Shown: piece by piece, positions 609-32,505 of the stretch
How positions within the stretch are numbered: the stretch's first letter is position 1
How the letters are laid out: every line of letters begins with the position of its first letter
Assembly (NCBI GenBank): GCA_031267575.1
Contig: JAIRYN010000053.1
Coordinates: 1-32,505, forward strand
Length of the DNA stretch: 32,505 nt
Direction: 5' to 3'
Origin: Synergistaceae bacterium
GTDB taxonomy: Bacteria > Synergistota > Synergistia > Synergistales > Aminobacteriaceae
Position numbers and translations under genes: made by a program
The notes under the pieces: model-generated
The model's input: the letters and a program-made list of their open reading frames with translations, nothing else
What the model was told of the DNA's origin: nothing
The model's database searches: none

Positions 609-915
609 GATAAAGCGATTCTCATCCAACGGCTGAAGCCGTTGGATGAGAATCGCAACACCGCCAACGGTGGCGTTTGTTTTGTATTTGATTTCTTGCC
701 ATATGTCTACTTTTTTTATGTTCCACTCCTTTTATGGCTCATCAACGCGAGATGCGGGGAGGAACACGACGGGGATATTAATGCGGCTGTAAATATTCTC
801 AGAGTGAGGGCATCCACTCTTAAAGGAGAAGACAGGAGAAGACATAAGATCGGTTTCAGTCGGCTGTCTTTGTCGATATTAGACTTCCACAACTTTAGTC
901 GTAGGAGTATGTCAA
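609..915 (+). mobile_element. Non-autonomous IS200/IS605-type element, copy A
   Basis: A 307-bp element with the hallmarks of the IS200/IS605 family. The left flank is TTAC (605-608) and the right end is TCAA (912-915), the same tetranucleotides used as left and right cleavage sites by IS608. The left end carries a 20-bp perfect hairpin (615-634/637-656) and the right end a degenerate hairpin just before GGAGTATGTCAA. The centre, read on the plus strand, still encodes the end of a TnpB protein: a CG pair, then GDINAAVNIL, the zinc-ribbon to RuvC-III region. There is no transposase gene, so it can only move with TnpA supplied in trans. A tandem GGAGAAGACA duplication near the right end distinguishes this copy. 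The right end lies 7 bp from the panB stop codon. Confidence 0.8.
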
Positions 916-922
916 GCCTTTT

Positions 923-1786
923 TTAACTCTTTTTCTCGTATTCCTTTAACATCGCGGAGTACTCCGCCTCGCATCCTTTCCGAATATGGTAGACGTGTTC
1001 TTCGCCAGGGAAACGTTTATTGCGCACATCGTCCACGTATTCTTTAAAGGCATTCGTCACGACCTCCGCCACATTCGCGTACTTTTTCACAAACTTCGGC
1101 GTAAATGCCTGAAACTGCCCCAGCATATCCCCGCAAATGATCAATTGCCCGTCGCAGGGAAGACCACCGCCGATGGAGTACACGGGAATGGTGAGGCGCT
1201 TCGTGATGAATTCCGTCAGCTCAGGAGGAATACCTTCCACTAGAAGGGCATAAGCTCCCGCCTCTTCCACGGCGATAGCGTCTTCGATGACATAGCGGGC
1301 GGACTCTGGTGTCACGCCCTGAGCTTTGAATCCACCCATCGGACCAGAACTTTGGGGCGTCAGTCCAATGTGTCCGCAAACGAGAACACCGCTGTCAGCA
1401 ATGGCCTTGATGCGGCTCTTGACTCTTACTCCACCTTCGAGTTTTACCGCGTCCATTTCGGCTTCTTTGAAAAAGCGGACGGCGTTCTCGACCGCTTGAG
1501 TATCGGAAACCTGGTAGGCCCCAAAAGGCATATCGCCCATCACGAACGTATTGGGCGCGCCCCGCCGCACGGCTTTACAATGGGAAATGCAGTCTTCCAT
1601 CGTGACGGGGATTGTGCCGGCATATCCCAAAACAACCATCCCAAGAGAATCGCCCACCAGAATCATGTCCATTCCGCTAGCTTCCGCGAACATGGCCGTG
1701 GGATAATCATATGCCGTGATCCAGGCGACTTTCTCCCCGTTTTTCTTCATATCCAAAAATTCGAGACGTCCTTTTTTCTTAGCCAA
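923..1786 (-). CDS. panB: 3-methyl-2-oxobutanoate hydroxymethyltransferase
   Basis: Ketopantoate hydroxymethyltransferase transfers a hydroxymethyl group from methylene-tetrahydrofolate to 2-oxoisovalerate, the first committed step of pantothenate and CoA synthesis. The family signatures are all present: LTAYDYP-like ITAYDYP near the start, VGDSLGMVVLGY, GDMPFGAY, VKLEGG, GHIGLTPQS and the EGIPPELTEFIT helix. I start the gene at a TTG (1786-1784) because GGAGGG lies 7 nt upstream and gives 287 residues, normal for PanB. A longer frame reaches an ATG at 1825, but its first residues would come from the mobile element next door. No panC or panD is visible. Copies A and B of the IS605-type element abut the gene on both sides with their right ends facing it, so any promoter must lie inside copy B. 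Confidence 0.93.
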   Translation of the reverse strand: MAKKKGRLEFLDMKKNGEKVAWITAYDYPTAMFAEASGMDMILVGDSLGMVVLGYAGTIPVTMEDCISHCKAVRRGAPNTFVMGDMPFGAYQVSDTQAVENAVRFFKEAEMDAVKLEGGVRVKSRIKAIADSGVLVCGHIGLTPQSSGPMGGFKAQGVTPESARYVIEDAIAVEEAGAYALLVEGIPPELTEFITKRLTIPVYSIGGGLPCDGQLIICGDMLGQFQAFTPKFVKKYANVAEVVTNAFKEYVDDVRNKRFPGEEHVYHIRKGCEAEYSAMLKEYEKKS

Positions 1787-1808
1787 AGCAAATCCCTCCT
1801 TAATCAAT

Positions 1809-2151
1809 TTGGCATACTCCCACAACTAAAGTTGTGGGATTCTAAGATCGACAAAGACAGCCGACTGAAACCGGTCTTACGTCTTCTCCTTTAAGAGTTT
1901 TCCTTTAAGAGTGGATGCCCCCACTCTGAGAATATTTACAGCCGCCTTGATATCTCGATTGATATCTCGATTGATACCCCGGTCGTGTTCCGCCCCGCAT
2001 CTCGCGTTGATAAGCCATAAAAGGAGTTTAACATGAAAGTAGACATATGGCAAGAAACCAAATACAAAACAAACGCCGCCAACGGTGGCGTTGCGATTCT
2101 CATCCAATCTCATCCAACGGCTGAAGCCGTTGGCTTTCTCATCGCTTTATC
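1809..2151 (-). mobile_element. Non-autonomous IS200/IS605-type element, copy B
   Basis: A homologue of copy A in the opposite orientation, 343 bp. Its cleavage sites are altered: left flank TTAT (2152-2155) instead of TTAC, and right end CCAA instead of TCAA (1809-1812), so it may be immobile. The right-end hairpin is perfect (10-bp stem, 1818-1827/1830-1839). The TnpB-like C-terminal segment (CGAEHDR, then KAAVNILRVGASTL) is present on the minus strand. Three internal tandem duplications make this copy longer: CTCATCCAAT-type at the left hairpin, a 12-bp GATATCTCGATT unit in the middle, and an ACTCTTAAAGGA-type unit near the right end. The right end is 22 bp from the panB start codon. Confidence 0.8.
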
Positions 2152-2510
2152 ATAAGTTATACGACCACGCTCTAACGAAACAAGCTCCCGAAAACTTAAA
2201 GAGCCATAGCACGTTACTTGTTTTTAGCTATTTGTATCATACCAAGAATAGAGGATTCCCTACAATCGCCGCTCTTTGGGGATTTTTAACCTGGAATTGA
2301 GGCGGGCTCGTGGCGCGCCGTCAAAATTCCTCTGTACCCCATTGAGTGAATGTGTAAAATATTGTGGGCAAGAAAGATTACCCCAGCGTAAAAATAACGG
2401 AAACGGATTCCTCCGTTTCGGCGCGAAGCTCATAAAAGTCGTCGCTTATATGTTTTATGGCCTCACGCAAAGATTTCGACATTGTTAGGAGTAAGTTAGG
2501 AGTAAGGTTG
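2152..2510. other. Non-coding spacer between element copy B and the hydrolase gene
   Basis: I see no supportable gene here. The spacer contains one clean hairpin (GAAACGGA at 2400-2407 with TCCGTTTC at 2412-2419) and, at its right end, the duplicated ribosome-binding site described separately. No convincing promoter was recognised. Confidence 0.4.
2485..2506 (+). repeat. Tandem duplication of the hydrolase Shine-Dalgarno segment
   Basis: TTAGGAGTAAG occurs twice, perfectly, at 2485-2495 and 2496-2506. The second copy puts GGAG 8 nt before the ATG at 2511, so this copy decides the start. The first is a spare ribosome-binding site. Confidence 0.85.
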
Positions 2511-3386
2511 ATGAAAAACGCTTTTGGTGTCCACCGCTCGATCGAGTTCATAGAGGCGCACGGCGGCGTGACTTTTCCCATGACCATCCTGTATCCCGTG
2601 TCGCCGCGCGACGATAACGAAGAAAATAAATGTTCTTCAACAAACCCGATGCGTCTGGTGCTGATTTCCCACGGCAGCGGAGGGTCCCCCGCGCTTTATC
2701 AGACTTTGGCCAGTCGCTTGGCCGGCGGCGGCTTCCTCGTGGGAGTGCCCGAACACCCTTTCAATAACCGAAGCGACAATTCTCAGGCAGGGACGTTGGC
2801 AAACTTAATCAACAGGCCAAAGCACATTCGCGCAGCCGCGGATTGGTTCTTCAAGAATCAAGCTCTCTCCCCCTTCCTGAAGCCCGATTCCTTCGCCCTT
2901 ATCGGCCATTCCATGGGGGGATGCACGGCGCTGATCATGGCTGGCGGTATACCCGCCTGTCCGTCTGGAGATACATTGGGCAGAGATGCCTTTCAGATCG
3001 ACACGGAACCTGACCGCCGAGTCAAAAGCTTGGTCCTGTTGGCGCCCGCGACAACTTGCTTCTGGAGCAAGGGGGCCTTGGACAGGGTCAATGTCCCGAT
3101 TTTGCTTCTGGTCGGCGAAAAAGACAAACACACATCTTATGACCGGCACGCCAAATGGGTGCTGGAAGGTGTACCCGATAGGTCGAAAATTCAGTACGGC
3201 ATCATCGAAAACGCCGGGCACTACTCCTTCTTAGATCCGTTTCCGAAACACTTGGTCAAAGAGTCCTTCCCGCCCTCCCAGGATCCGCCGGGATTTGATC
3301 GGACGGTTTTTCACGACGACCTGGGCTTCGTAGTTCTGGACTTTCTCCGACGCACGCTGACCGAGACAGAAGAGCGCCGCTCCTAA
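2511..3386 (+). CDS. Alpha/beta hydrolase, dienelactone-hydrolase-like
   Basis: A 291-residue serine hydrolase of the predicted dienelactone hydrolase type. The fold markers are in order: oxyanion-region LISHGSGG near residue 60, the nucleophile elbow GHSMGG with Ser134, an acidic residue in LVGEKDKH (Asp205), and the catalytic His in ENAGHY (His237). No signal peptide is evident, so it is probably cytoplasmic. The substrate cannot be read from sequence; small esters are typical of the family. The ATG at 2511 is preferred over an in-frame ATG at 2457 because GGAG stands 8 nt before it. The gene stands alone and converges on the minus-strand exported protein gene that follows. Confidence 0.85.
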   Translation: MKNAFGVHRSIEFIEAHGGVTFPMTILYPVSPRDDNEENKCSSTNPMRLVLISHGSGGSPALYQTLASRLAGGGFLVGVPEHPFNNRSDNSQAGTLANLINRPKHIRAAADWFFKNQALSPFLKPDSFALIGHSMGGCTALIMAGGIPACPSGDTLGRDAFQIDTEPDRRVKSLVLLAPATTCFWSKGALDRVNVPILLLVGEKDKHTSYDRHAKWVLEGVPDRSKIQYGIIENAGHYSFLDPFPKHLVKESFPPSQDPPGFDRTVFHDDLGFVVLDFLRRTLTETEERRS

Positions 3387-3388
3387 TG

Positions 3389-3412
3389 CGATTAACGCCG
3401 AGCGGCGTAATC
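3389..3412. terminator. Hairpin between convergent genes
   Basis: GATTA and CGCC (with a bulged A) pair with GGCG and TAATC around GAGC, between the stop codons of two convergent genes. There is no T-tract on either strand, so a terminator role is only inferred from position. Confidence 0.3.
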
Positions 3413-3425
3413 CAAGAGACAGGTG

Positions 3426-4646
3426 TCAATAGTCGTAATAGGGAAGCCCCTCCACGTCGAGAGTGTCCAATACAGTAAAGTTTCTGTCGCGCACCTCCAA
3501 AATGTAGACCTTCCGCTGGCTGGGTCGATGCGTTTTCCCGTCGATCTCCAAAACCTGAGCGCCGAAGGGAATGCCCTTGACGTTTTCCAGCTCGGAGAGC
3601 AGCTCCCTCTGGCTGGGTCTTTCCACGTTCTCGATGTTTTGCCTCGGTATGGCCTCCAATGCCTGAATTAACCAGATCACCAGCGCGTTGGCCCGGCCCG
3701 CCGCGGCTTTATCCGAAACGGCCATGGTTTGCGACATCCAGAGGTCTCGCTTCAATTGCTCGAAACCGCCCAGTTCTTCGAGGTACATGTTCTGATCGGC
3801 GAAAATCATCCCCTTAAATGATCGAAAGGACGCGTCCGGTGCGCCGCCGTACCAGAGGCGATAGGGCGACATGAGCCCCATGACGCCGCGCCAAATTTCT
3901 TTACTTGCCATGCCCCCCAGGTAGCTTATTAATACGCCATCGCTGGCGTTCTTGATTTCCTGCTCCACCAGACTGAAGGTGTCCGTCACGGAGGCGTCCA
4001 ACCAATAGGGCATGGGCATGAAGCCCGCCTTCAGCAAGAAATCAAAACAGATCTTGGCCTCTCGCTCTTCGTTGAGAGTAAAACGGGCCCCCATAATGCC
4101 TAGACGGGAATTTTTCTCCAGCCTTTTCGAGGCGTAATCCGCGAAAGCGCGACATCGGTAGTCTCGAAACAGGTCCAGAGCGAAAACGAAGGGATGCAGA
4201 CGCCCTGCCTCATAAAAAGAAACGTTCTCACCTCCGGCCAATAGCAGGGGCATTCCGCTCCTCGCCGCCTGCCTGATTAACTCCCTGTCCACAGGGTAGG
4301 AGGCGAAGCTCAAAACCGCCACGGTATGGGACGTTATGGGCAAGGCGAAGTCCGCTATCGCGTCCTCGGTAGCGGGTGGCAGCAAAACGAAGTTGAGGTC
4401 ATGACCATGTATCCCGTTGCCGCTCTCCGAAACCTGGGTTTGATGCCAGGCGAGAGTCCGCTGAATGGCTTTCCCCTTTTCGTTTTCCCAACCTTCGTCA
4501 GGAGGCACCACCAACACATCCCACGTCCAAACGGACTCGTCCACGGCGGCAAAAGCGACTTCCAGGAAGAAACCCTCCCGCCGAAAAAGAAAACACACTG
4601 CCATGACAACAACAAAAAAAACGATATTTCTCCTTATCGATACCAT
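3426..4646 (-). CDS. Exported solute-binding-like protein of unknown ligand
   Basis: A 406-residue protein that begins with a signal peptide or membrane anchor (about residues 6-33: basic VSIRRN, then a long hydrophobic run ending in AFAA). The mature part shows alternating strands and helices like type I periplasmic binding proteins of the branched-chain amino acid class: HTVAVLSFAS, GMPLLLAGGEN, SRLGIMGARF, GVLISYLGG. I infer a periplasmic ligand-binding fold, possibly a sensor or an ABC-transporter partner, but no permease genes are nearby. The ATG at 4646 has AAGGAG 9 nt upstream. An alternative ATG at 4676 overlaps the upstream HD-domain gene as ATGA but has only a weak ribosome-binding site. 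It is probably cotranscribed with that gene. Confidence 0.75.
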   Translation of the reverse strand: MVSIRRNIVFFVVVMAVCFLFRREGFFLEVAFAAVDESVWTWDVLVVPPDEGWENEKGKAIQRTLAWHQTQVSESGNGIHGHDLNFVLLPPATEDAIADFALPITSHTVAVLSFASYPVDRELIRQAARSGMPLLLAGGENVSFYEAGRLHPFVFALDLFRDYRCRAFADYASKRLEKNSRLGIMGARFTLNEEREAKICFDFLLKAGFMPMPYWLDASVTDTFSLVEQEIKNASDGVLISYLGGMASKEIWRGVMGLMSPYRLWYGGAPDASFRSFKGMIFADQNMYLEELGGFEQLKRDLWMSQTMAVSDKAAAGRANALVIWLIQALEAIPRQNIENVERPSQRELLSELENVKGIPFGAQVLEIDGKTHRPSQRKVYILEVRDRNFTVLDTLDVEGLPYYDY

Positions 4647-4672
4647 AATATCGATCTCCTTCCACCTCATAT

Positions 4673-5266
4673 TCATCCTATCTTAAAAGCAGGTCCACAA
4701 TACTCTCCGGTGATTTTTTCTACCAGTCTCTCGATTTCAAAAGCCATCTTTATCCTGCGTAGGGCGTTTTCTAGGGCTTTTCCTCCGGATGGGAAACTTT
4801 GACGGACCAATTCTTCCCTTTCCCGTAGGGAAACGATCTCCATGCCGTTGACGTATTTATCCGCCAGATAGAGGATCTTCGTCTCCATTGACGCCTGGGA
4901 GGGAAGATCCATGTGTCCTTCCACGACCTTCGCTACATCGGGAAAACCGTTTCGCGTCAAAAAAGCGGCGCCCTTTCTGGCGTGGTCGGGTTGTGTCCTC
5001 AATATGTCGTGCAGTTGCGCTGCGGCAACCAGAAGTTCCAAATCGACGGGAATGTGCCACGTGCAAAGTTCCCCTATTTTCAAAACCACCTCCGCCACAC
5101 GGCGCTGATGGAGAATAACCTGAAAGGGCGTCTCCGCCGCCATTAGCAATGACTCGATCACGGTCTTCCCAGGAACTTGACGAGATTTGGCGCAAAAAGA
5201 AGGCTTCTCCAGAACTCGGAAGGTACCCATCTTCATGGCTACTTCCATCGTTACCTGCATCGTCAT
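4673..5266 (-). CDS. HD-domain phosphohydrolase-like protein
   Basis: About 197 residues with a compact HD domain: LHQRRVAEVV, then AAQLHDILR (the HD pair), PDHARKGAAFL, VEGHMDLP and ILYLADKYV. This spacing of H, HD, H and D metal ligands is that of small HD/HDIG proteins, including those found fused to or beside MobA-like nucleotidyltransferases. No such partner is seen here. The substrate is unknown; phosphate esters or nucleotides are likely. The start is uncertain: I use the ATG at 5266, which has AAAGGGG 8 nt upstream; a GTG at 5275 is also in frame. The gene lies just upstream of the exported binding-protein-like gene on the same strand. Confidence 0.75.
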   Translation of the reverse strand: MTMQVTMEVAMKMGTFRVLEKPSFCAKSRQVPGKTVIESLLMAAETPFQVILHQRRVAEVVLKIGELCTWHIPVDLELLVAAAQLHDILRTQPDHARKGAAFLTRNGFPDVAKVVEGHMDLPSQASMETKILYLADKYVNGMEIVSLREREELVRQSFPSGGKALENALRRIKMAFEIERLVEKITGEYCGPAFKIG

Positions 5267-5311
5267 GAAGTTCACCCCTTTCGCTTCCTTGTGTATAATA
5301 AAATTAAGAAA

Positions 5312-5317
5312 ATTATA
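5312..5317 (-). promoter_or_regulatory. Possible -10 box for the HD-domain gene
   Basis: The minus strand reads TATAAT at 5317-5312, about 45 bp before the HD-gene start codon. A weak TTCTTG lies 17 bp further upstream as a possible -35 box. The surrounding DNA is AT-rich and sits between divergent genes, which fits a promoter. Confidence 0.3.
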
Positions 5318-5398
5318 CGCTACGGCGACGCTTCCAAGAAGGCAAATAAATCGACATTATTTGTGGGCGCGCGCTCTGGGCGGAGGAGGCAATGAAAC

Positions 5399-5692
5399 GT
5401 GCATTACATCAACACCGGCATCTTTATGGGGTTATCCGTCTGGATTCTGGGGTTCGCGTTGATGGTGGCGGGATGGCTAGTCGAGGTGGTATTTGAGAGT
5501 TACGGAACCATCCCCGCAAAGATACTCTACAAAACGGGCGCGATTATCGTGGCGGTTCCCGTTGTTTATCTGCTGTGGAAAAGTTCCCGCTGGCTCTCTT
5601 CGAATCGTCTCGACATCGTCCTTTTTTTGCGGAGCATGATCAGCGCCGTCCAGAGCCTCTTGAATGAGGTTCTTTTCATCGCATCTTCATGA
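5399..5692 (+). CDS. Small two-helix membrane protein
   Basis: A 97-residue protein with a GTG start. GGAGG lies 9 nt upstream, and this decides the start over an ATG at 5392-5394 in another frame that reads only 35 codons. Two membrane segments are evident, at about residues 6-30 (FMGLSVWILGFALMVAGWLV) and 45-62. The C-terminal third is amphipathic. No family is recognised. Its last codons overlap the start of the CPBP protease as ATGA, so the two are translationally coupled, and the small protein may be a partner or regulator of the protease. Confidence 0.7.
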   Translation: MHYINTGIFMGLSVWILGFALMVAGWLVEVVFESYGTIPAKILYKTGAIIVAVPVVYLLWKSSRWLSSNRLDIVLFLRSMISAVQSLLNEVLFIASS

Positions 5693-6243
5693 AATCCATC
5701 GTTGTCGATCTTCTTGGTGTAGCGGTAGGTTTTGCCGTGGCCGTTTTTATGCTCTATTTTCCCTATACCTGGTGCAAACGGCGCGGCGAATCCGAGGAAG
5801 CCTATGGGCTTCGTTGGGTTATGGGGCAAAAAGCATGGCGCGACACGATCTTCGCAACTCTTCTGACGCTTCTTCCCTTGACTTTTATATCTTTTTACTG
5901 GCCTTCAGATTGGGGTAGGGGTGGCCCTTTTCATCCCGACCTTTGGCTAACTCTAGATATGTTGGGTGGGGGCCTGGCGGCGGCTTTCATCGAGGAGACG
6001 TTTTACAGAGGCTGGCTTCAAACCTTGTTTACCCGCAGATGGGGTCCTTGGGTCGCCATACCCTTGGTGTCGCTTCTTTTCGCGCTCTCCCATTTATTTG
6101 TGGCCCCCAGTTGGTTGAGGATCGCGACGTTTTTTCCGGGACTGGTTATGGGAGCCTTACGACATCGCAATGGTTCCATCTTGCCTGCCATCATTTATCA
6201 CGCGGTCTGTAACATCTGGGCCGTCTGGTGGGCGCCCCGTTAA
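5689..6243 (+). CDS. CPBP-family intramembrane glutamic protease
   Basis: A 184-residue polytopic membrane protein of the CPBP (CAAX protease and bacteriocin-processing) family. The three conserved motifs are present: EETFYRG with Glu102, Glu103 and Arg107; FALSH with His135; and YHAVCN with His171. Catalysis is by the glutamate/histidine centre within the membrane. Family members process prenylated proteins, bacteriocins or C-terminal sorting signals; which applies here is unknown. The gene is coupled to the upstream small membrane protein (ATGA overlap) and is followed by an exported protein and an M23 endopeptidase, so an envelope role is likely. Confidence 0.85.
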   Translation: MKSIVVDLLGVAVGFAVAVFMLYFPYTWCKRRGESEEAYGLRWVMGQKAWRDTIFATLLTLLPLTFISFYWPSDWGRGGPFHPDLWLTLDMLGGGLAAAFIEETFYRGWLQTLFTRRWGPWVAIPLVSLLFALSHLFVAPSWLRIATFFPGLVMGALRHRNGSILPAIIYHAVCNIWAVWWAPR

Positions 6244-6301
6244 ACACGGGCGCCGAAGTTGAAGTTTTGTAATCGTTCGAGATCTGGTGAATAGGTGAAT
6301 T

Positions 6302-7417
6302 ATGAGTAAAATAAAAAAAAGTTTTCTGATTTTGGCGTTTTTTTGGATGTTCTCGCAGGAGGCGACGATCGCTTGGGGAGAGACTTTCCTTTTGCGCATT
6401 CCCTTCAAAAAAGGCGCGATGGCCACGGCAACCCTACCGGACGGAACTGTAACCAATCTGGGCACGGTGCGGGCCCTACCCGTCAAAACAAATTGGCCGG
6501 CCTATACTGCCAGCAAATGGGGTGTACCTCAAACCGTGTGCGCAACGGCGGTGAACGCTGTTCACATTCTTTTAGACGTGGAGAAGAACAGGGGACGCAT
6601 TTTCAGCGTTATCCCCGCGGTTACTGTGGCTCCCGCCGCTCCTAATGGCGCTTACTTCTCCATCGACTCGCCAGCCGGCACAGGGATGTTCGGCGGATTC
6701 GCGCCCCTAACGGGGTCCGCCGTCTTTGTCGAAAGCCCCGACGGCGCGAGACGATCCTTGTTCGGTAAAATCGGCGAAAACGTGGAAAAAATTTTCCCCC
6801 TGGACGAAGACGAGTCCCTTGTGATTGAGTCGTCCTTGGCTGAGGAGACCGGCGCTTGGATGGTAGACGTGGAAAACCGTCCTGGAGGCCGGGTCATTGC
6901 CTGGACGGGAAAAGGACCTGAGGTTGTGGCTCGGGTGGTGCGCCCCGTGGGCGGCGTCGGACGTTTCGGGGGAACGGAGTTTCAGGGCTTGGGGAGGATT
7001 CGAGCAAACCATACGGGCGTGATCGACATTTCGACCTCCTTGCGGGGACAGGTGGGGGGCATCCAGATCATGCCCTTGGTCCATGCTCTCACTTCCTCGG
7101 AAATGGCTAACGCCTGGAAGCTGACGCAGTGGATGATTCTGGTGCCTTTGCCAGGCAAAAAACCGCTAGAGGGAACGCCGCCCCTGTTCAAAGGCGCTCT
7201 TTTACCCGGAACCCAACTGAATGACAAACTGCCGGATATTTGGAGCACTTACGGTCGAAAACCCCTCGTTTTAGCTCGTTTGAACGGAGGTCCATGGGGC
7301 TCGCTCCCCTCGGTTTCCGGCAAGGTGGACGATGCCCTGCGCGCCATGACGCATCTGCGTATCTATTATCCTTTTTGGCACGAACCTCTTTGGCGCGAAC
7401 CTCAAGGACCGGAATAA
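6302..7417 (+). CDS. Exported protein of unknown function
   Basis: 371 residues with a clear signal peptide: SKIKKS, a hydrophobic run, and a likely cleavage near AWG-ET at about residue 26. The mature part is rich in Gly, Pro and beta-type segments (LPDGTVTNLGTV, GGRVIAWTGKGPEVVARVV), and looks like a periplasmic beta-rich protein. I do not recognise a family. AGGTGA lies a few bases before the ATG. It sits 58 bp after the CPBP protease and 5 bp before the M23 peptidase gene, so the two downstream genes are one transcript and probably act together on the cell wall or envelope. Confidence 0.75.
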   Translation: MSKIKKSFLILAFFWMFSQEATIAWGETFLLRIPFKKGAMATATLPDGTVTNLGTVRALPVKTNWPAYTASKWGVPQTVCATAVNAVHILLDVEKNRGRIFSVIPAVTVAPAAPNGAYFSIDSPAGTGMFGGFAPLTGSAVFVESPDGARRSLFGKIGENVEKIFPLDEDESLVIESSLAEETGAWMVDVENRPGGRVIAWTGKGPEVVARVVRPVGGVGRFGGTEFQGLGRIRANHTGVIDISTSLRGQVGGIQIMPLVHALTSSEMANAWKLTQWMILVPLPGKKPLEGTPPLFKGALLPGTQLNDKLPDIWSTYGRKPLVLARLNGGPWGSLPSVSGKVDDALRAMTHLRIYYPFWHEPLWREPQGPE

Positions 7418-7422
7418 GACAA

Positions 7423-8181
7423 ATGGTAAAACAAATGCGTCGAAAAATTCACATTGCGGCGTTGATTTTTGCGTTCTGGATTTACCCATGCCCGTCTCAC
7501 GCGGCCGCCCTACCCGACGTCGCCAATAGTGAAAAATCCTTGCAAGCTGACGAAAGGTCCATGCTTCCCAAAGATAAACCTGATGAGCCTGAGCCTCTGA
7601 TCATGATCAAGCTGCATGGAGTGCCTTTGTTCATGCGTGACTCTCAACCCAAGGACACTATTGCTCCCCAAGAACCCCTGGAGAACGAAAAAAACGCGCT
7701 GCCGCCTCTTTTTCTGCCGCCGCCGGTCAAACCGCGCCCTCAACCTCCCACACCTCCCACAAAAACAGAAAGCGCGGTTTTCACGCCCTCAGATAAAATG
7801 CAATGGCCTCTGGAGGGCAAGATCACCTCTGGCTTCGGGACGCGCGGAAAACGCAACTTTCATATGGGAATCGATATCCCCATGCCCAAGGGTACTTCCA
7901 TTCACGCCGCTCAGGGGGGAGTTGTTCTGGACATCAGCAACACAAAAGACAAGCGATACCGCGGATACGGCAATATCGTTTTGCTCGGCCACGGTAACGG
8001 GCTCGTCACAATGTACGCCCATTGTCAGAGCGTCTCTGTCAAGAAAGGGCAATCAGTCAAACAGGGAGACGTAATCGGAACCGTGGGGGATACTGGACGC
8101 ACAACCACCAATCACCTTCACTTCGAGGTCCGCGAAAACGGCAAGCCCGTAAATCCCTGCGACTATTTACCGGCTCGCTGA
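7423..8181 (+). CDS. M23-family murein endopeptidase, exported
   Basis: A 252-residue LytM/M23 peptidase. It has a signal peptide (RRKIHIAALIFAFWIYP, cleavage near SHAAA), a proline-rich linker of about 100 residues, then the zinc peptidase domain. Ligands and catalytic residues are intact: His147 and Asp151 in HMGID, and the HLHFEV motif with His231 and His233, with the MYAHC strand between. It is therefore predicted to cut peptidoglycan cross-links or to be a true enzyme rather than an EnvC/NlpD-type activator. I start at the ATG at 7423, 5 bp after the upstream stop. The frame extends further upstream, but that part overlaps the preceding gene. An ATG at 7435 is the alternative. Confidence 0.9.
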   Translation: MVKQMRRKIHIAALIFAFWIYPCPSHAAALPDVANSEKSLQADERSMLPKDKPDEPEPLIMIKLHGVPLFMRDSQPKDTIAPQEPLENEKNALPPLFLPPPVKPRPQPPTPPTKTESAVFTPSDKMQWPLEGKITSGFGTRGKRNFHMGIDIPMPKGTSIHAAQGGVVLDISNTKDKRYRGYGNIVLLGHGNGLVTMYAHCQSVSVKKGQSVKQGDVIGTVGDTGRTTTNHLHFEVRENGKPVNPCDYLPAR

Positions 8182-8265
8182 TAGGTTGAGAGGTAGAGGG
8201 ATATATGAGGGCCATCATATAGTGTAGATATTAGAATCGGATATAGGATAGAGTGGACGGCGTTC

Positions 8266-9909
8266 CTACACGTCCAGGCAGCTTCCTCCTATAAACTCGC
8301 GAATGACCGAGTTATTCGGGATCCCCTCGGACTGGATCGACGGAACGAACTTCAGAATGGTGAGCAAGCGTTGAGCCTCTCCGAAAACCGGTGAAGCCTC
8401 GTGAACTGTGTGGAGGATAGGTTCCACATAACCCTTGAGCACGCCCAGTTCGTAGGGCAGCGAGGAGTTAAAAACGACGTTGGCTCGGTTTTGAAAGGGA
8501 AAAATGTAACGTATAGCTCCCCACATCACTTTGGGGTACATCTTTAACGTGACCTCCGCGGACTTTCCCCGGGTGCGGTAATCGCGGACGATACGACGCA
8601 ACAAACGGTTGTCGCTCGTACTGGTCCGGTTGTGGGGGTCGATACAGATGCCCGTCAAGGGCGAGACGAAGACGGTGAAGCGGTTGTTCTCCGGAAGCAT
8701 GGCTAGAATGCGTTCGTTGAGGCCGTGGATCCCCTCCATGATGAGAATGTCCTCGGACCCCAGTTTGATGACTTTTCCGGGCTCTTTCCGTCCCTTGAGA
8801 AAATCGTAGCGGGGCGTGACGATCTCTTCGCCCTGAAGGATGGCCGTCAAGTCGTTCTTCAGAAGATCCAGGTCCAGAGCCTCCAGGATCTCATGATCAA
8901 AATCACCCTTTTCGTCTCTGGGAGCGTCCCGCAAATCTCGAAAATAATTATCCATAGGCAAGGTTACGGGCTTTTTCCCGCAAACGATCAGTTGAATCTT
9001 GAGCCTTTCCGAGAAGGTGGTCTTACCTGATGCCGATGGGCCGGCAAGGGTCACAACTTTCACTTCGGGCCTCGAAGCGATCTCCTCGGCGATGCGGGAG
9101 ATGCGCTGAGAGTGAAATGCCTCGGAAATAAGAATGAGTTCCTGGGATCTTCCGTTCGTGACGTGACGATGTAGGCTGCTGAGGTAGTTCAGATCCAGAA
9201 CCTTCAGCCAGTGAGCGTAATCGAAAAACACGTCGCTCAGGGATTTGTCTCCTCGAAAGGGTAGAATGCTGTCAGGCGAAGACAGAGTGGGAAACTGCAA
9301 AACCATCCCACGCGAGAATGGCACGACGTCAAAGGTCTTGAGCACCCCGGTAGACGGCGCCATTGTACCGCAGAAATACCCATACTGAACACCGCAGCGA
9401 TAAACTTCCACGGGGTCCAAGTTTGCTTTCGCGAAGAGTTCCGCTATCTCCAGCTCTCCCTGTTTCTCGAAAATGCGCTTGGCTTTGTCGATGGGAAGGA
9501 CTCTTCGGATGATCGGAATGTCCTGCCTCACCATCTCGCTCATGGCGGCGTGGAGTTTGTACGCGTCGGACTGGGTCGCCGGGCCTTCCTCAAACTCCCA
9601 ATAGTGCCCCTCGTCGATGGAGTGTCGCACGGTGGCCTTACGGTTCAGCGCCTTTTGGCAGGCGATAATGAAGAGGAAATCGAGGGATCGGCGGTAGACC
9701 TGCAACCCTTCGCTGGAGGTGGTGGCGATGAACTCCGCCGTGGAATCCTCCTCGACCACCCATTCCAGAGGGCGCATGTAGTTGTTTACGCGCCAGGCGA
9801 CGATGCCGCTGTCGACGGTTATGCTCAACTCCGCCATAGCACTGCGACCAGAGATCGGCGACTCGCTGGTCATATATTTTCCGTCTTTAAATTTGATGGT
9901 AAAAGCCAT
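8266..9909 (-). CDS. Uridine-kinase-like nucleoside kinase with N-terminal TGS-type extension
   Basis: 547 residues, much longer than classical uridine kinase (~210). The C-terminal half is a phosphoribulokinase/uridine-kinase P-loop domain: Walker A GPSASGKTT at 290-298, the PMDNYFRDL and YDFLKGRKEP substrate segments, ILIMEGIHGLN and the RLLRRIVRDYRTRG lid. The N-terminal ~230 residues resemble the TGS plus threonyl-tRNA-synthetase second-domain arrangement seen in large bacterial nucleoside kinases (for example GHYWEFEEG, then FEKQGELEIAELF). Likely role: phosphorylation of uridine or another nucleoside in salvage. GGGAG lies 8 nt before the ATG, within a duplicated segment. The gene is monocistronic, converging on the M23 peptidase gene. 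Confidence 0.85.
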   Translation of the reverse strand: MAFTIKFKDGKYMTSESPISGRSAMAELSITVDSGIVAWRVNNYMRPLEWVVEEDSTAEFIATTSSEGLQVYRRSLDFLFIIACQKALNRKATVRHSIDEGHYWEFEEGPATQSDAYKLHAAMSEMVRQDIPIIRRVLPIDKAKRIFEKQGELEIAELFAKANLDPVEVYRCGVQYGYFCGTMAPSTGVLKTFDVVPFSRGMVLQFPTLSSPDSILPFRGDKSLSDVFFDYAHWLKVLDLNYLSSLHRHVTNGRSQELILISEAFHSQRISRIAEEIASRPEVKVVTLAGPSASGKTTFSERLKIQLIVCGKKPVTLPMDNYFRDLRDAPRDEKGDFDHEILEALDLDLLKNDLTAILQGEEIVTPRYDFLKGRKEPGKVIKLGSEDILIMEGIHGLNERILAMLPENNRFTVFVSPLTGICIDPHNRTSTSDNRLLRRIVRDYRTRGKSAEVTLKMYPKVMWGAIRYIFPFQNRANVVFNSSLPYELGVLKGYVEPILHTVHEASPVFGEAQRLLTILKFVPSIQSEGIPNNSVIREFIGGSCLDV

Positions 9910-9912
9910 AAA

Positions 9913-9940
9913 TGAAACTCCCTTCCTGAAACTCCCTTCC
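9913..9940 (-). repeat. Tandem duplication of the nucleoside-kinase Shine-Dalgarno segment
   Basis: On the minus strand GGAAGGGAGTTTCA occurs twice, perfectly (9940-9927 and 9926-9913). The inner copy serves as ribosome-binding site of the nucleoside kinase; the outer is redundant. This is the same pattern as at 2485-2506. Confidence 0.85.
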
Positions 9941-10045
9941 TCGTTCGCTGGTACTCATTTATTGTAGCGCTAAACGGGAAATATAGGAAAAGGGCGAATA
10001 CACCGTTTCGATTTGATATACGTTCCGCGAAGGTTTGGCATTGAA

Positions 10046-10081
10046 ACTAAGACTAAGATTAAGACTAAAACTAAAACTGAG
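10046..10081. repeat. Hexamer tandem repeat, six copies
   Basis: Six successive variants of ACTAAG/ACTAAA (ACTAAG, ACTAAG, ATTAAG, ACTAAA, ACTAAA, ACTGAG) lie between the nucleoside-kinase leader and the left end of mobile element copy C. A simple-sequence tract of this kind may vary in length. Confidence 0.8.
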
Positions 10082-10095
10082 AATGAATCTGTTAC

Positions 10096-10406
10096 GATAA
10101 AGTGATGAGAAAGCCAACGGCTGAAGTCGTTAGATGAGATTGGATGAGAATCGCAACGCCGCCAACGGTGGCGTTTGTTTTGTATTTGATTTCTTGCCAT
10201 ATGTCTACTTTTATGTTAAATTTTTTTTATGGCTTATCAACGCGAGATGCGGGGTGGAACACGACCGGTATATTAATATGGTTGTAAATATTCTCAGAGT
10301 AGGGGACATCCACTCTTATCTTAAAAGAGAAGACGTAAGACCGGTTTCAATCAGCTGTCTTTGTCGAACTTAGAATTCCATGACTTTAGTCGTGGGAGTA
10401 TGTCAA
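10096..10406 (+). mobile_element. Non-autonomous IS200/IS605-type element, copy C
   Basis: A 311-bp homologue of copies A and B, flanked by TTAC (10092-10095) and ending in TCAA (10403-10406), the intact IS608-like cleavage signals. The left hairpin is partly decayed (AAGCCAACGGCT against AGTCGTTAGAT). The right hairpin (TCCATGACT with AGTCGTGGGA) is imperfect. The TnpB C-terminal remnant is more degenerate (DRYINMVVNIL). Its right end lies 30 bp from the stop codon of the convergent heptose-kinase gene. As with copy A, the base following the element begins GCCT. Confidence 0.78.
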
Positions 10407-11575: not shown

Positions 11576-11705
11576 TTATTTCACCGCTCCCCGCGTTTCA
11601 GCTCACCTTGAAAAAGAAACCTTCGCTCTTTCTGGTCCTTTGAGTAAAGCGCCATCATATTCGCTCACCTAAACCTTTATCGTCTGTGAACTTGCCCAAT
11701 CATAA

Positions 11706-11858
11706 CTATCAAAAGGTGTACTTTTTGATAAAATCCCAAATTTAAATTGAAACTTGAAATTAGGAGATAATTGTGATGTAATACCTACTCAATATATAGT
11801 GGTTTTGCTGTTGCTTGCCAGTGATAGGGTGACTATCAAAAAGTACGCTTTTTGATAG
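11706..11858 (+). repeat. 153-bp palindrome-ended repeat (MITE-like), copy 1
   Basis: Each end is a hairpin built from TATCAAAA and TTTTGATA. The right one is an 11-bp perfect stem (11833-11843/11848-11858) around TACG, and the left an 8-bp stem. The interior aligns along its length, with about two thirds identity, to the reverse complement of 32363-32505. It has no coding potential. The right hairpin is followed by CTGTTTTTTT, so it can act as a plus-strand terminator. The interior has a weak extended -10 (TGATGTAAT, 11774-11782) pointing toward glyQ. Confidence 0.75.
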
Positions 11859-12124
11859 CTGTTTTTTTAGTTTTTCGACAATTGAAGTTTCCTTAAGCGT
11901 CTATAGAACATCCTTCAGCGAATACAACCAGCGAATACAGCTATAACGTCAGTGAGCCCTCCCCTACTGAGACCGCGTCGTTCGAGTTTTTCATGGCAAA
12001 ACTCGCCTCTTTACAAAGCCTCTTTACAAAATGAATGGCAGTTCTGTGATTCAGCATCGCGAATTTAGCGACTTTCCATTAAAATACAAAACTGATGAAC
12101 TCAGTTTTGCGGGAGGCGGTTTTT
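11859..12124. other. Spacer in front of glyQ with hairpins and tandem duplications
   Basis: I see no gene here. It holds a 13-bp-period duplication of CAGCGAATACA (11916-11939), an 8-bp hairpin CGAGTTTT/AAAACTCG (11983-11990/11998-12005), an exact 13-bp tandem duplication GCCTCTTTACAAA (12005-12030), and a 9-bp hairpin CAAAACTGA/TCAGTTTTG (12087-12095/12101-12109) that ends two bases before the glyQ Shine-Dalgarno sequence. I looked for the T-box antiterminator bulge sequence and did not find it. Confidence 0.5.
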
Positions 12125-15162: not shown

Positions 15163-15333
15163 CGAGTTGGGCATCTATGAATTATCTACGAATCGTCTAC
15201 TACGAGTCATCTACGAATGTTGAACATTTATTTAAAGTATTGAGCATCTATTTAAAGTATTGAGCATCTATTTAAAATGTTGAGCATTTATTTAAAATGT
15301 TGGGCATCTATTTAAAAAGGAGGAATATAGATT
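15163..15333 (+). other. Repeat-filled leader between glyS and ppdK
   Basis: The first part (about 15170-15220) carries loose repeats of ATCTACGA, the second the five 20-bp units listed separately. There is no hairpin plus T-tract, so ppdK may be read through from glyQS. AAAGGAGG stands 10-12 nt before the ppdK ATG. Confidence 0.55.
15221..15316 (+). repeat. Five tandem 20-bp repeats before ppdK
   Basis: Units of TGAGCATCTATTTAAAGTAT and close variants start at 15221, 15241, 15261, 15281 and 15301; the last is cut after 16 bases and runs into the ppdK ribosome-binding site. Each unit contains ATTTAAA and a GCATCTAT-like core. The period is about two helical turns. It is not CRISPR-like because there are no spacers. 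Confidence 0.9.
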
Positions 15334-23676: not shown

Positions 23677-24156
23677 TCAAAACTCGACAGTTTTCGTCTC
23701 ACCTGTGAACGAATAAAATTTGGCTGTGGCGTCTTTGAGATACCAGACCTGTGTATTGCCGTCATCCGCCGAATACCTGTCTTTCAGTATGGGGTAGGCA
23801 TCGAGCAAAAACTGTTTTGCTTCTCTCCGATCATCCTCCACGACGACGGCCTGCACTCGAACCCATTGCCCTTTATTATCGTCGGCGCAGATTTCGATTT
23901 TGGGGTTGGCGGATAGTTGCTTCGAGATGTTTTTGATCTTGCCGGTTTGAATATAAATCCGACCCTCGAAAATCTCGAAAGTTCCAAAAGGGCGGACTCT
24001 CGGCCGATCTCCTTCGACGGTGGCAAGATAATAGGTGCCACATTTCTTTACGAAATCGCGGACTTCTTTCAACGCGGCTTCTTCTTTCAATATAGCTTCT
24101 TCTTTCAATATGGCTTCTTCTTTCAACATGGCTTCCTTGTCAAGGACTGTTTTCAT
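23677..24156 (-). CDS. Pyridoxamine 5'-phosphate oxidase-like split-barrel protein
   Basis: 159 residues. From residue 30 it is a small FMN-binding split-barrel protein: FVKKCGTYYLATVEGDRPRV, PFGTFEIFEGRIYIQTGK, NPKIEICADD and WVRVQAVVVED. Such proteins bind flavin or heme and are usually of unknown substrate; the name does not prove PNPO activity. The odd part is the N-terminus: residues 9-31 are an expanded six-residue repeat (A-x-L-K-E-E) coded by 18-bp DNA repeats. Family members normally begin near LKEVRDFV. The repeat would form an acidic/basic helix. The first ATG is kept as start; no strong Shine-Dalgarno sequence is evident besides a purine-rich GAGAGG. Confidence 0.82.
   Translation of the reverse strand: MKTVLDKEAMLKEEAILKEEAILKEEAALKEVRDFVKKCGTYYLATVEGDRPRVRPFGTFEIFEGRIYIQTGKIKNISKQLSANPKIEICADDNKGQWVRVQAVVVEDDRREAKQFLLDAYPILKDRYSADDGNTQVWYLKDATAKFYSFTGETKTVEF
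24064..24132 (-). repeat. 18-bp coding repeats in the split-barrel gene
   Basis: On the minus strand the 18-bp unit GCCATATTGAAAGAAGAA and close variants occur three times, with a fourth partial unit. The unit length is a multiple of three, so copy-number changes would lengthen or shorten the N-terminal helix without frameshift. Confidence 0.85.
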
Positions 24157-28581: not shown

Positions 28582-28609
28582 ATTCGATGCCAAGGATTCG
28601 ATGCCAAGG
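28582..28609. repeat. 14-bp tandem duplication
   Basis: ATTCGATGCCAAGG occurs twice in tandem in the spacer downstream of cysE. The rest of the 28453-28634 spacer is AT-rich without a recognised gene or terminator. Confidence 0.8.
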
Positions 28610-28634
28610 ATTATCTTCTGTTAGGTCACACAGT

Positions 28635-32247: not shown

Positions 32248-32362
32248 ACGCCGTTCAGTCCTTTTGCTATGTTCTTAAGCTTTTGTTCAAATCCAATGTT
32301 CAAATCCAATTGTTGGCACAAAGCCGGTTTCAAGTGTCATCTGTTAAATTGTCCAATAACTG
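32248..32362. other. AT-rich spacer between the glycosyltransferase remnant and the palindromic repeat
   Basis: No gene was recognised. A short CAAATCCAAT-type duplication (TTCAAATCCAATGTTCAAATCCAATTG, seen as two adjacent TTCAAATCCAAT units near 32287-32313) is present. Confidence 0.4.
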
Positions 32363-32505
32363 GTATCAAAAGGTATACTTTTTGACAGCCACTTTGGCAC
32401 TAACCAGCAACAGCAAAATAGCTAAACTTTTGTTAGGTATTATACCATAATTATCCCAAAATTTCGAGTTCAAATTTCAATTCTAGGGCTTTATCAAAAA
32501 GTATA
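32363..32505 (-). repeat. Palindrome-ended repeat (MITE-like), copy 2, cut by the window end
   Basis: Reverse-complement homologue of 11706-11858. It runs from a hairpin TATCAAAAGGTATACTTTTT (32364-32383, then GACAG) to a second TATCAAAAAGTATA that is cut by the window edge at 32505. Shared interior blocks on the minus strand include TTTTGCTGTTGCT and TAATACCTA. No coding potential. Confidence 0.75.
32439..32447 (-). promoter_or_regulatory. Extended -10 promoter inside the repeat
   Basis: The minus strand reads TGGTATAAT (32447-32439), a perfect extended -10 element, directed to the sugar island whose first start codon is at 32247. No good -35 box is visible, which extended -10 promoters can tolerate. 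In copy 1 the equivalent sequence is TGATGTAAT. Confidence 0.4.

Follow-up and report, generated by a model that had tools for sequence, protein, structure and literature searches.

Gene-less IS605-group elements with an omega-RNA scaffold form a dispersed family in a Synergistaceae draft genome

Results

The window analysed here is the whole of contig C53 (JAIRYN010000053.1; 32,505 nucleotides), part of a 2.76-Mb, 76-contig, 97%-complete draft genome of a Synergistaceae bacterium, and it carries three copies of a miniature element of the IS200/IS605 type. The positions given in a preliminary description of the sequence, 609-915 on the plus strand (copy 1), 1809-2151 on the minus strand (copy 2), and 10096-10406 on the plus strand (copy 3), proved exact, and its cleavage signals were read correctly: copies 1 and 3 lie directly behind TTAC, the target and left cleavage site outside the element (605-608 and 10092-10095, both plus), and end in TCAA, whereas copy 2 lies behind TTAT (2155-2152, minus) and ends in CCAA. 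The assignment to IS200/IS605 also holds, as the same left and right ends flank tnpA elsewhere in this genome.

Each copy is built in the same order: a left-end hairpin, a second GC-rich hairpin followed by T's, a promoter-like region, the start of tnpA, the tail of tnpB, and a right-end hairpin. The tetranucleotide AAAG stands at or near the foot of the left-end hairpin; in copy 1, it precedes a hairpin of 19 pairs at 615-656 (plus). The statement that the copies lack tnpA and a full tnpB is right in that there is no transposase gene, with the addition that the first five codons of tnpA, ATGGCTTATCAACG, are present in each copy and fused to tnpB at CGAGATGCGGGG, the tnpB part beginning at the last CxxC of TnpB. 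A junction search placed these codons at 734-747 (plus), 2005-2018 (minus), and 10229-10242 (plus) in copies 1 to 3, with the fusion at 747/748, 2005/2004, and 10242/10243, respectively; copy 1 has a single change, CTC instead of CTT, in ATGGCTTATCAACG. Matches to the promoter consensus 5' of the tnpA start codon are retained as TTGCCA-17-TAAACT in copy 2 (2025-2053, minus), with TG before the second hexamer, and as TTGCCA-17-TAAATT in copy 3 (10194-10222, plus); in copy 1, the second hexamer is altered. The three copies differ pairwise by 11-12% at aligned sites, and their flanks are unrelated.

The segment retained at the right end is an omega-RNA scaffold. The right ends of 17 relatives' elements, most of them adjoining tnpB, were aligned with no sequence of the present genome included, and a covariance model (R2) was built from these relatives alone. 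Four helices are proposed, namely hp1, outer P2, inner P2, and hp3, the last of which is the right-end hairpin itself. Both sides have changed in 18 of the 25 pairs, and 92.3% of cells pair, a figure favoured by the structure having been drawn from the same sequences; the double changes and the slid controls remain clear, the covariation score being 0.558, whereas shuffles give 0.200 +/- 0.020 and slid versions no more than 0.130. Since hp1 and P2 lie outside the terminal DNA hairpin, an RNA structure is indicated. R2 matches copy 1 at 788-915 (plus; 84.6 bits, E 6.6e-20), copy 2 at 1809-1940 (minus; 103.8 bits, E 6.8e-25), and copy 3 at 10283-10406 (plus; 91.5 bits, E 1.1e-21), and it matches at least 116 places in the genome, with 150 of 778 candidates scored. 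The scaffold overlaps the tnpB tail and the right end and finishes at TCAA; in the consensus, the foot of hp1 lies 106 nt before the end of TCAA, and the copies retain about 54 nt beyond it. Thus, the covariation in relatives and the 85-104-bit matches to a model made without these copies bear out the earlier proposal that the retained segment corresponds to omega RNA, and the conserved fold for which it called is found. An Rfam scan of the window at gathering scores gave no match.

Full-length relatives of the element exist. One locus of the same genome (contig C54) carries a complete tnpA frame of 132 aa with the motifs HIH and YIEEQ; it belongs to Pfam Y1_Tnp, and ISHp608 TnpA is among its relatives of solved structure. 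In the genome's own element, tnpB follows tnpA with an ATGA overlap. Every tnpB copy seen here is deleted or frameshifted, no stretch of the genome matches the parental TnpB at E <= 1e-60, and an intact tnpB of the matching subfamily was not found in the draft. In a relative (G013), an element consists of the left end, a tnpA interrupted near codon 111, an uninterrupted TnpB frame of 379 aa, and the right end; on reading, this TnpB has the RuvC motifs GLDFG, VVEDLN, and HDRDIN, and solved TnpBs match it at 9e-45. The expected parent was therefore found as far as shared ends, tnpA, and a TnpB with a matching C-terminus are concerned, but its tnpB is broken in every copy seen in this genome and uninterrupted in the relative. 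A 413-aa TnpB on contig C30 was considered as a partner and rejected, being distant from the parental TnpB (32% identity over 225 aa) and encoded at a locus without these ends. Contigs that end inside tnpA might have signalled recent identical copies; this was rejected too, because the ones examined were about 5% apart or further.

Copies 1 to 3 are members of a large family. We extracted 58 copies from the genome, all with a single architecture and exact boundaries; this and the other counts for the genome are lower bounds, and the assembly is a draft in which repeats are cut at contig ends. With up to three mismatches allowed, the 30-nt junction was counted 55 times and its reversed control 0 times, which excludes a chance origin. 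Of 46 copies with a complete left end, 42 have TTAC in front of it; at the right end, TCAA stands in 42 copies and TTAA in 11. AAAG and GAAT are conserved across the copies, GAAT as the majority form, and among 55 copies the promoter-like hexamers read TTGCCA or TTGTCA in 51 and TAAACT in 49. The flanks are random, with no sequence in common. A single junction in many different flanks means that one deletion founded the family and then moved. The distance from the consensus is 2-12% for most copies and greater for three; the closest pair is 3% apart, and so the family is not young. On the top strand of the element, the per-site frequency of C-to-T changes is roughly double that of G-to-A changes (0.106 versus 0.055, all copies), a bias not seen among the few private changes.

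These properties are those of palindrome-associated transposable elements (PATEs): the copies have no transposase gene, near-terminal palindromes, neither terminal inverted repeats nor target duplications, ends in common with tnpA-bearing IS200/IS605 elements (on C54 and at other loci of the genome), and evidence of multiplication as a unit in 58 copies with one junction and random flanks. Neither the named genome collection nor viral contigs contained an exact match to the junction, and when 60 relatives were searched at the DNA level, parts of the element came up but not the family itself.

We looked for purifying selection on the RNA through private substitutions in 55 aligned copies, taking the majority consensus as the ancestor. 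There are 74 such substitutions in the right part. Paired sites account for 19 of them, where 23.1 +/- 4.0 would be expected, and a pair is broken by 15, against an expectation of 17.3 +/- 3.4 (p = 0.31). The omega core is no more conserved than the left-end spacer (private rates 0.0091 and 0.0075). There is accordingly no signal of purifying selection on the stems, in a test whose simulated power is 0.79 for purging of half of the pair-breaking changes and 0.28 for purging of a quarter. Given this null result and this power, strong selection on most copies is unlikely, and weak selection, or selection on a few copies, remains compatible with the data. Copies without hp1 and/or P2 exist, each seen once, and insertions of 3 nt or more are frequent between the helices.

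Other short families share this design. A second has at least six copies (L295, L303, L305, L306, L311, L314), in which TTTCATGATT is joined to GCGATATCAATG and hp1 and P2 differ from those of the main family by paired changes; a hybrid (L316) has the left part of this second family joined to the right part of the main one. A third, with at least two copies, has the junction CATAT/GCGGGGCG, and single forms occur too. A relative from another genus (G024) has a single PATE with yet another junction. All of these, like the main family, retain hp1, P2, and hp3. When left ends were scanned, a scaffold lay nearby at 64 of 77; several of the 13 without one are at contig ends or with tnpA. As right-end probes favour scaffold-bearing copies and 13 of 77 left ends lack a scaffold, scaffold retention in the spreading families is only suggestive.

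A side class comprises scaffold loci without a left end (L271, L280, L281, L287, L299, L302, L319, L326, L329, L315). At least seven right-end copies of this kind have a genomic TTAC immediately in front of them and begin at the consensus point TTAA/TGCGGCTG, which reads TCAA in many other copies; one each starts at TCAA/CGCGAG and TAAA/TATTC, and one more is apparently a further deletion of the TTAA form. On the simplest reading, these would be scars of TnpA excision, in which the enzyme cut at the usual left site and again at an internal site of TCAA or TTAA type and then sealed the donor; on a second reading, a unit without a left end would have been inserted. The scaffold tree gives no single clade for these copies and so no support for a mobile family lacking the left end.

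Other features of the window deserve mention. Between copies 1 and 2 (605-2155) sits a gene for ketopantoate hydroxymethyltransferase (PF02548, about 923-1800, minus); the two copies are inverted relative to each other, with their right ends pointing towards it. An unrelated second dispersed repeat lies at 11680-11866 and 32337-32482 (matching directly over 49 nt at 80% and in inverted orientation over 128 nt at 73%). Between 1 and 32505 there are 17 perfect tandem duplications with units of 8-30 nt (0.52 per kb), for example at 1947-1976, 9913-9941, 15216-15317, 24063-24135, and 28582-28612; a shuffled window has 0.4 on average, and 136 kb of relatives' loci contain 9 (0.066 per kb). Loci of this genome rich in the elements have 1.1 per kb. 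The genome thus seems prone to short tandem duplications, to which we attribute the length differences between element copies.

Discussion

Based on these observations, we propose, with a probability of roughly 85%, that the copies are a non-autonomous family of PATE or MITE (miniature inverted-repeat transposable element) type derived from an IS605-group element, mobilised by TnpA and now a decaying relic, which in the past may have used TnpB in trans. The parent would have had the order left end, promoter, tnpA, overlapping tnpB, and right end. One internal deletion would have fused codon 5 of tnpA to the last 45 or so codons of tnpB, and the product of about 300 nt would have kept both ends recognised by TnpA, that is, TTAC, AAAG, and a hairpin on the left and GAAT, a hairpin, and TCAA on the right. 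Amplification presumably followed in trans, with TnpA moving the element as single-stranded DNA. The scaffold shares its DNA with the tnpB tail and the right end, and the left end holds the promoter, so that each copy would also be a promoter/omega-RNA cassette; its transcript would take the downstream flank as guide. While a matching TnpB existed, the copies may have used it in trans for retention at their sites. We regard them as relics since the search for an intact TnpB gene to match them was negative in this draft and their decay looks neutral.

Several points weigh against this proposal. Only one complete tnpA frame was found in the genome, and even the two most similar copies have diverged. 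An intact tnpB could be hidden by the draft assembly. Moreover, several separately joined short families keep the full scaffold, which an account based on the ends alone does not require.

The preliminary description went further and suggested that selection or mechanism had kept exactly this segment, so that the copies could be stand-alone guide loci. On a reading of this kind with selection, each copy would express an omega RNA and thereby send a trans-acting TnpB to the empty site or other targets. The complete scaffold recognised by the covariance model at so many places, the promoter-like site conserved in 49-51 of 55 copies, and the retention of hp1, P2, and hp3 across differently joined families all speak for such loci, but one deletion accounts for all copies of the main family, and TnpA needs both ends anyway. 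Furthermore, the draft, which is possibly incomplete, has yielded no intact TnpB of the same subfamily, pair-breaking changes are about as frequent as expected, the core evolves no more slowly than the spacer, and copies without hp1 or P2 persist alongside others with insertions between their helices. We therefore consider guide loci under selection unlikely. Rather unlikely as well is a trans-acting population of omega RNAs, in which more than 100 scaffolds, many with a promoter and each with a different genomic guide, used TnpB from elsewhere (or still use it, should the draft miss an intact gene) to hold gene-less copies at their sites, short families with the whole scaffold having arisen and spread repeatedly as a result.

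Retention of the copies as local regulatory DNA, acting as terminators or promoters of neighbouring genes, is very unlikely. Copies 1 and 2 do flank the ketopantoate hydroxymethyltransferase gene in inverted orientation, and the hairpins resemble terminators more often than shuffled sequences do; however, recognition by TnpA accounts for the hairpins, no recurrent position next to genes is evident, and the decay looks neutral. Separate decay of different full-length elements into three copies that are alike by coincidence can practically be dismissed. Deletion derivatives of the tnpA/tnpB element are indeed numerous and varied in this genome, but the identical junction in at least 55 places, the exact boundaries, and the unrelated flanks refute such an origin. 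Random decay was one of the outcomes that would have undone the preliminary description, the others being the want of related tnpA and tnpB genes and of a conserved fold; both genes and fold exist.

Returning to the decaying, TnpA-mobilised family that we favour, its value lies in offering a natural setting in which to ask whether gene-less copies of a transposon persist with the help of TnpB guide RNAs. It combines at least 116 copies of the scaffold, several short families with junctions of their own, a single complete transposase frame, and a draft with no intact matching nuclease; the question could be tested directly by comparing strains or species that have TnpB with others that lack it.

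The PATE is a known kind of element; what is unusual here is that the family is large, that promoter and scaffold form a complete cassette, and that the nuclease is missing. Gene-less elements or loci with guide RNAs in the recent TnpB/IscB literature include the PATEs of Geobacillus and the stand-alone IscB omega RNAs of Ktedonobacter. The cleavage and guide tetranucleotides of IS608 from Helicobacter pylori, TTAC/AAAG and GAAT/TCAA (PMC5934647), are identical to those described here, but IS608 is autonomous, with tnpA and tnpB, and the present copies have neither gene. The omega RNA of AmaTnpB has a processed scaffold of 106 nt with four stem-loops that ends at the right end (PMC10278001), and the same length and four helices are kept in our copies; that RNA is cut from the tnpB mRNA by TnpB, whereas these elements lack tnpB and no intact matching gene was found in the draft. 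The PATEs of Haloquadratum walsbyi are transposase-free, share near-terminal palindromes with IS605-type elements, have lost their core by deletion, and in some cases were amplified as homogeneous families (PMC3119063). In contrast, the present family is bacterial; besides tnpA start codons and a promoter-like site, its copies carry an omega-RNA scaffold that is complete and covaries, a feature whose retention the 2011 paper did not consider. Nearly the same design is seen in a PATE-like element of Halanaerobium hydrogeniformans, in which the left-end hairpin, the last 58 nt of tnpB, and the entire right end make up 271 nt (PMC7290912), but that element is a single copy without tnpA sequence, whereas the family described here has at least 58 copies, with tnpA codons 1-5.

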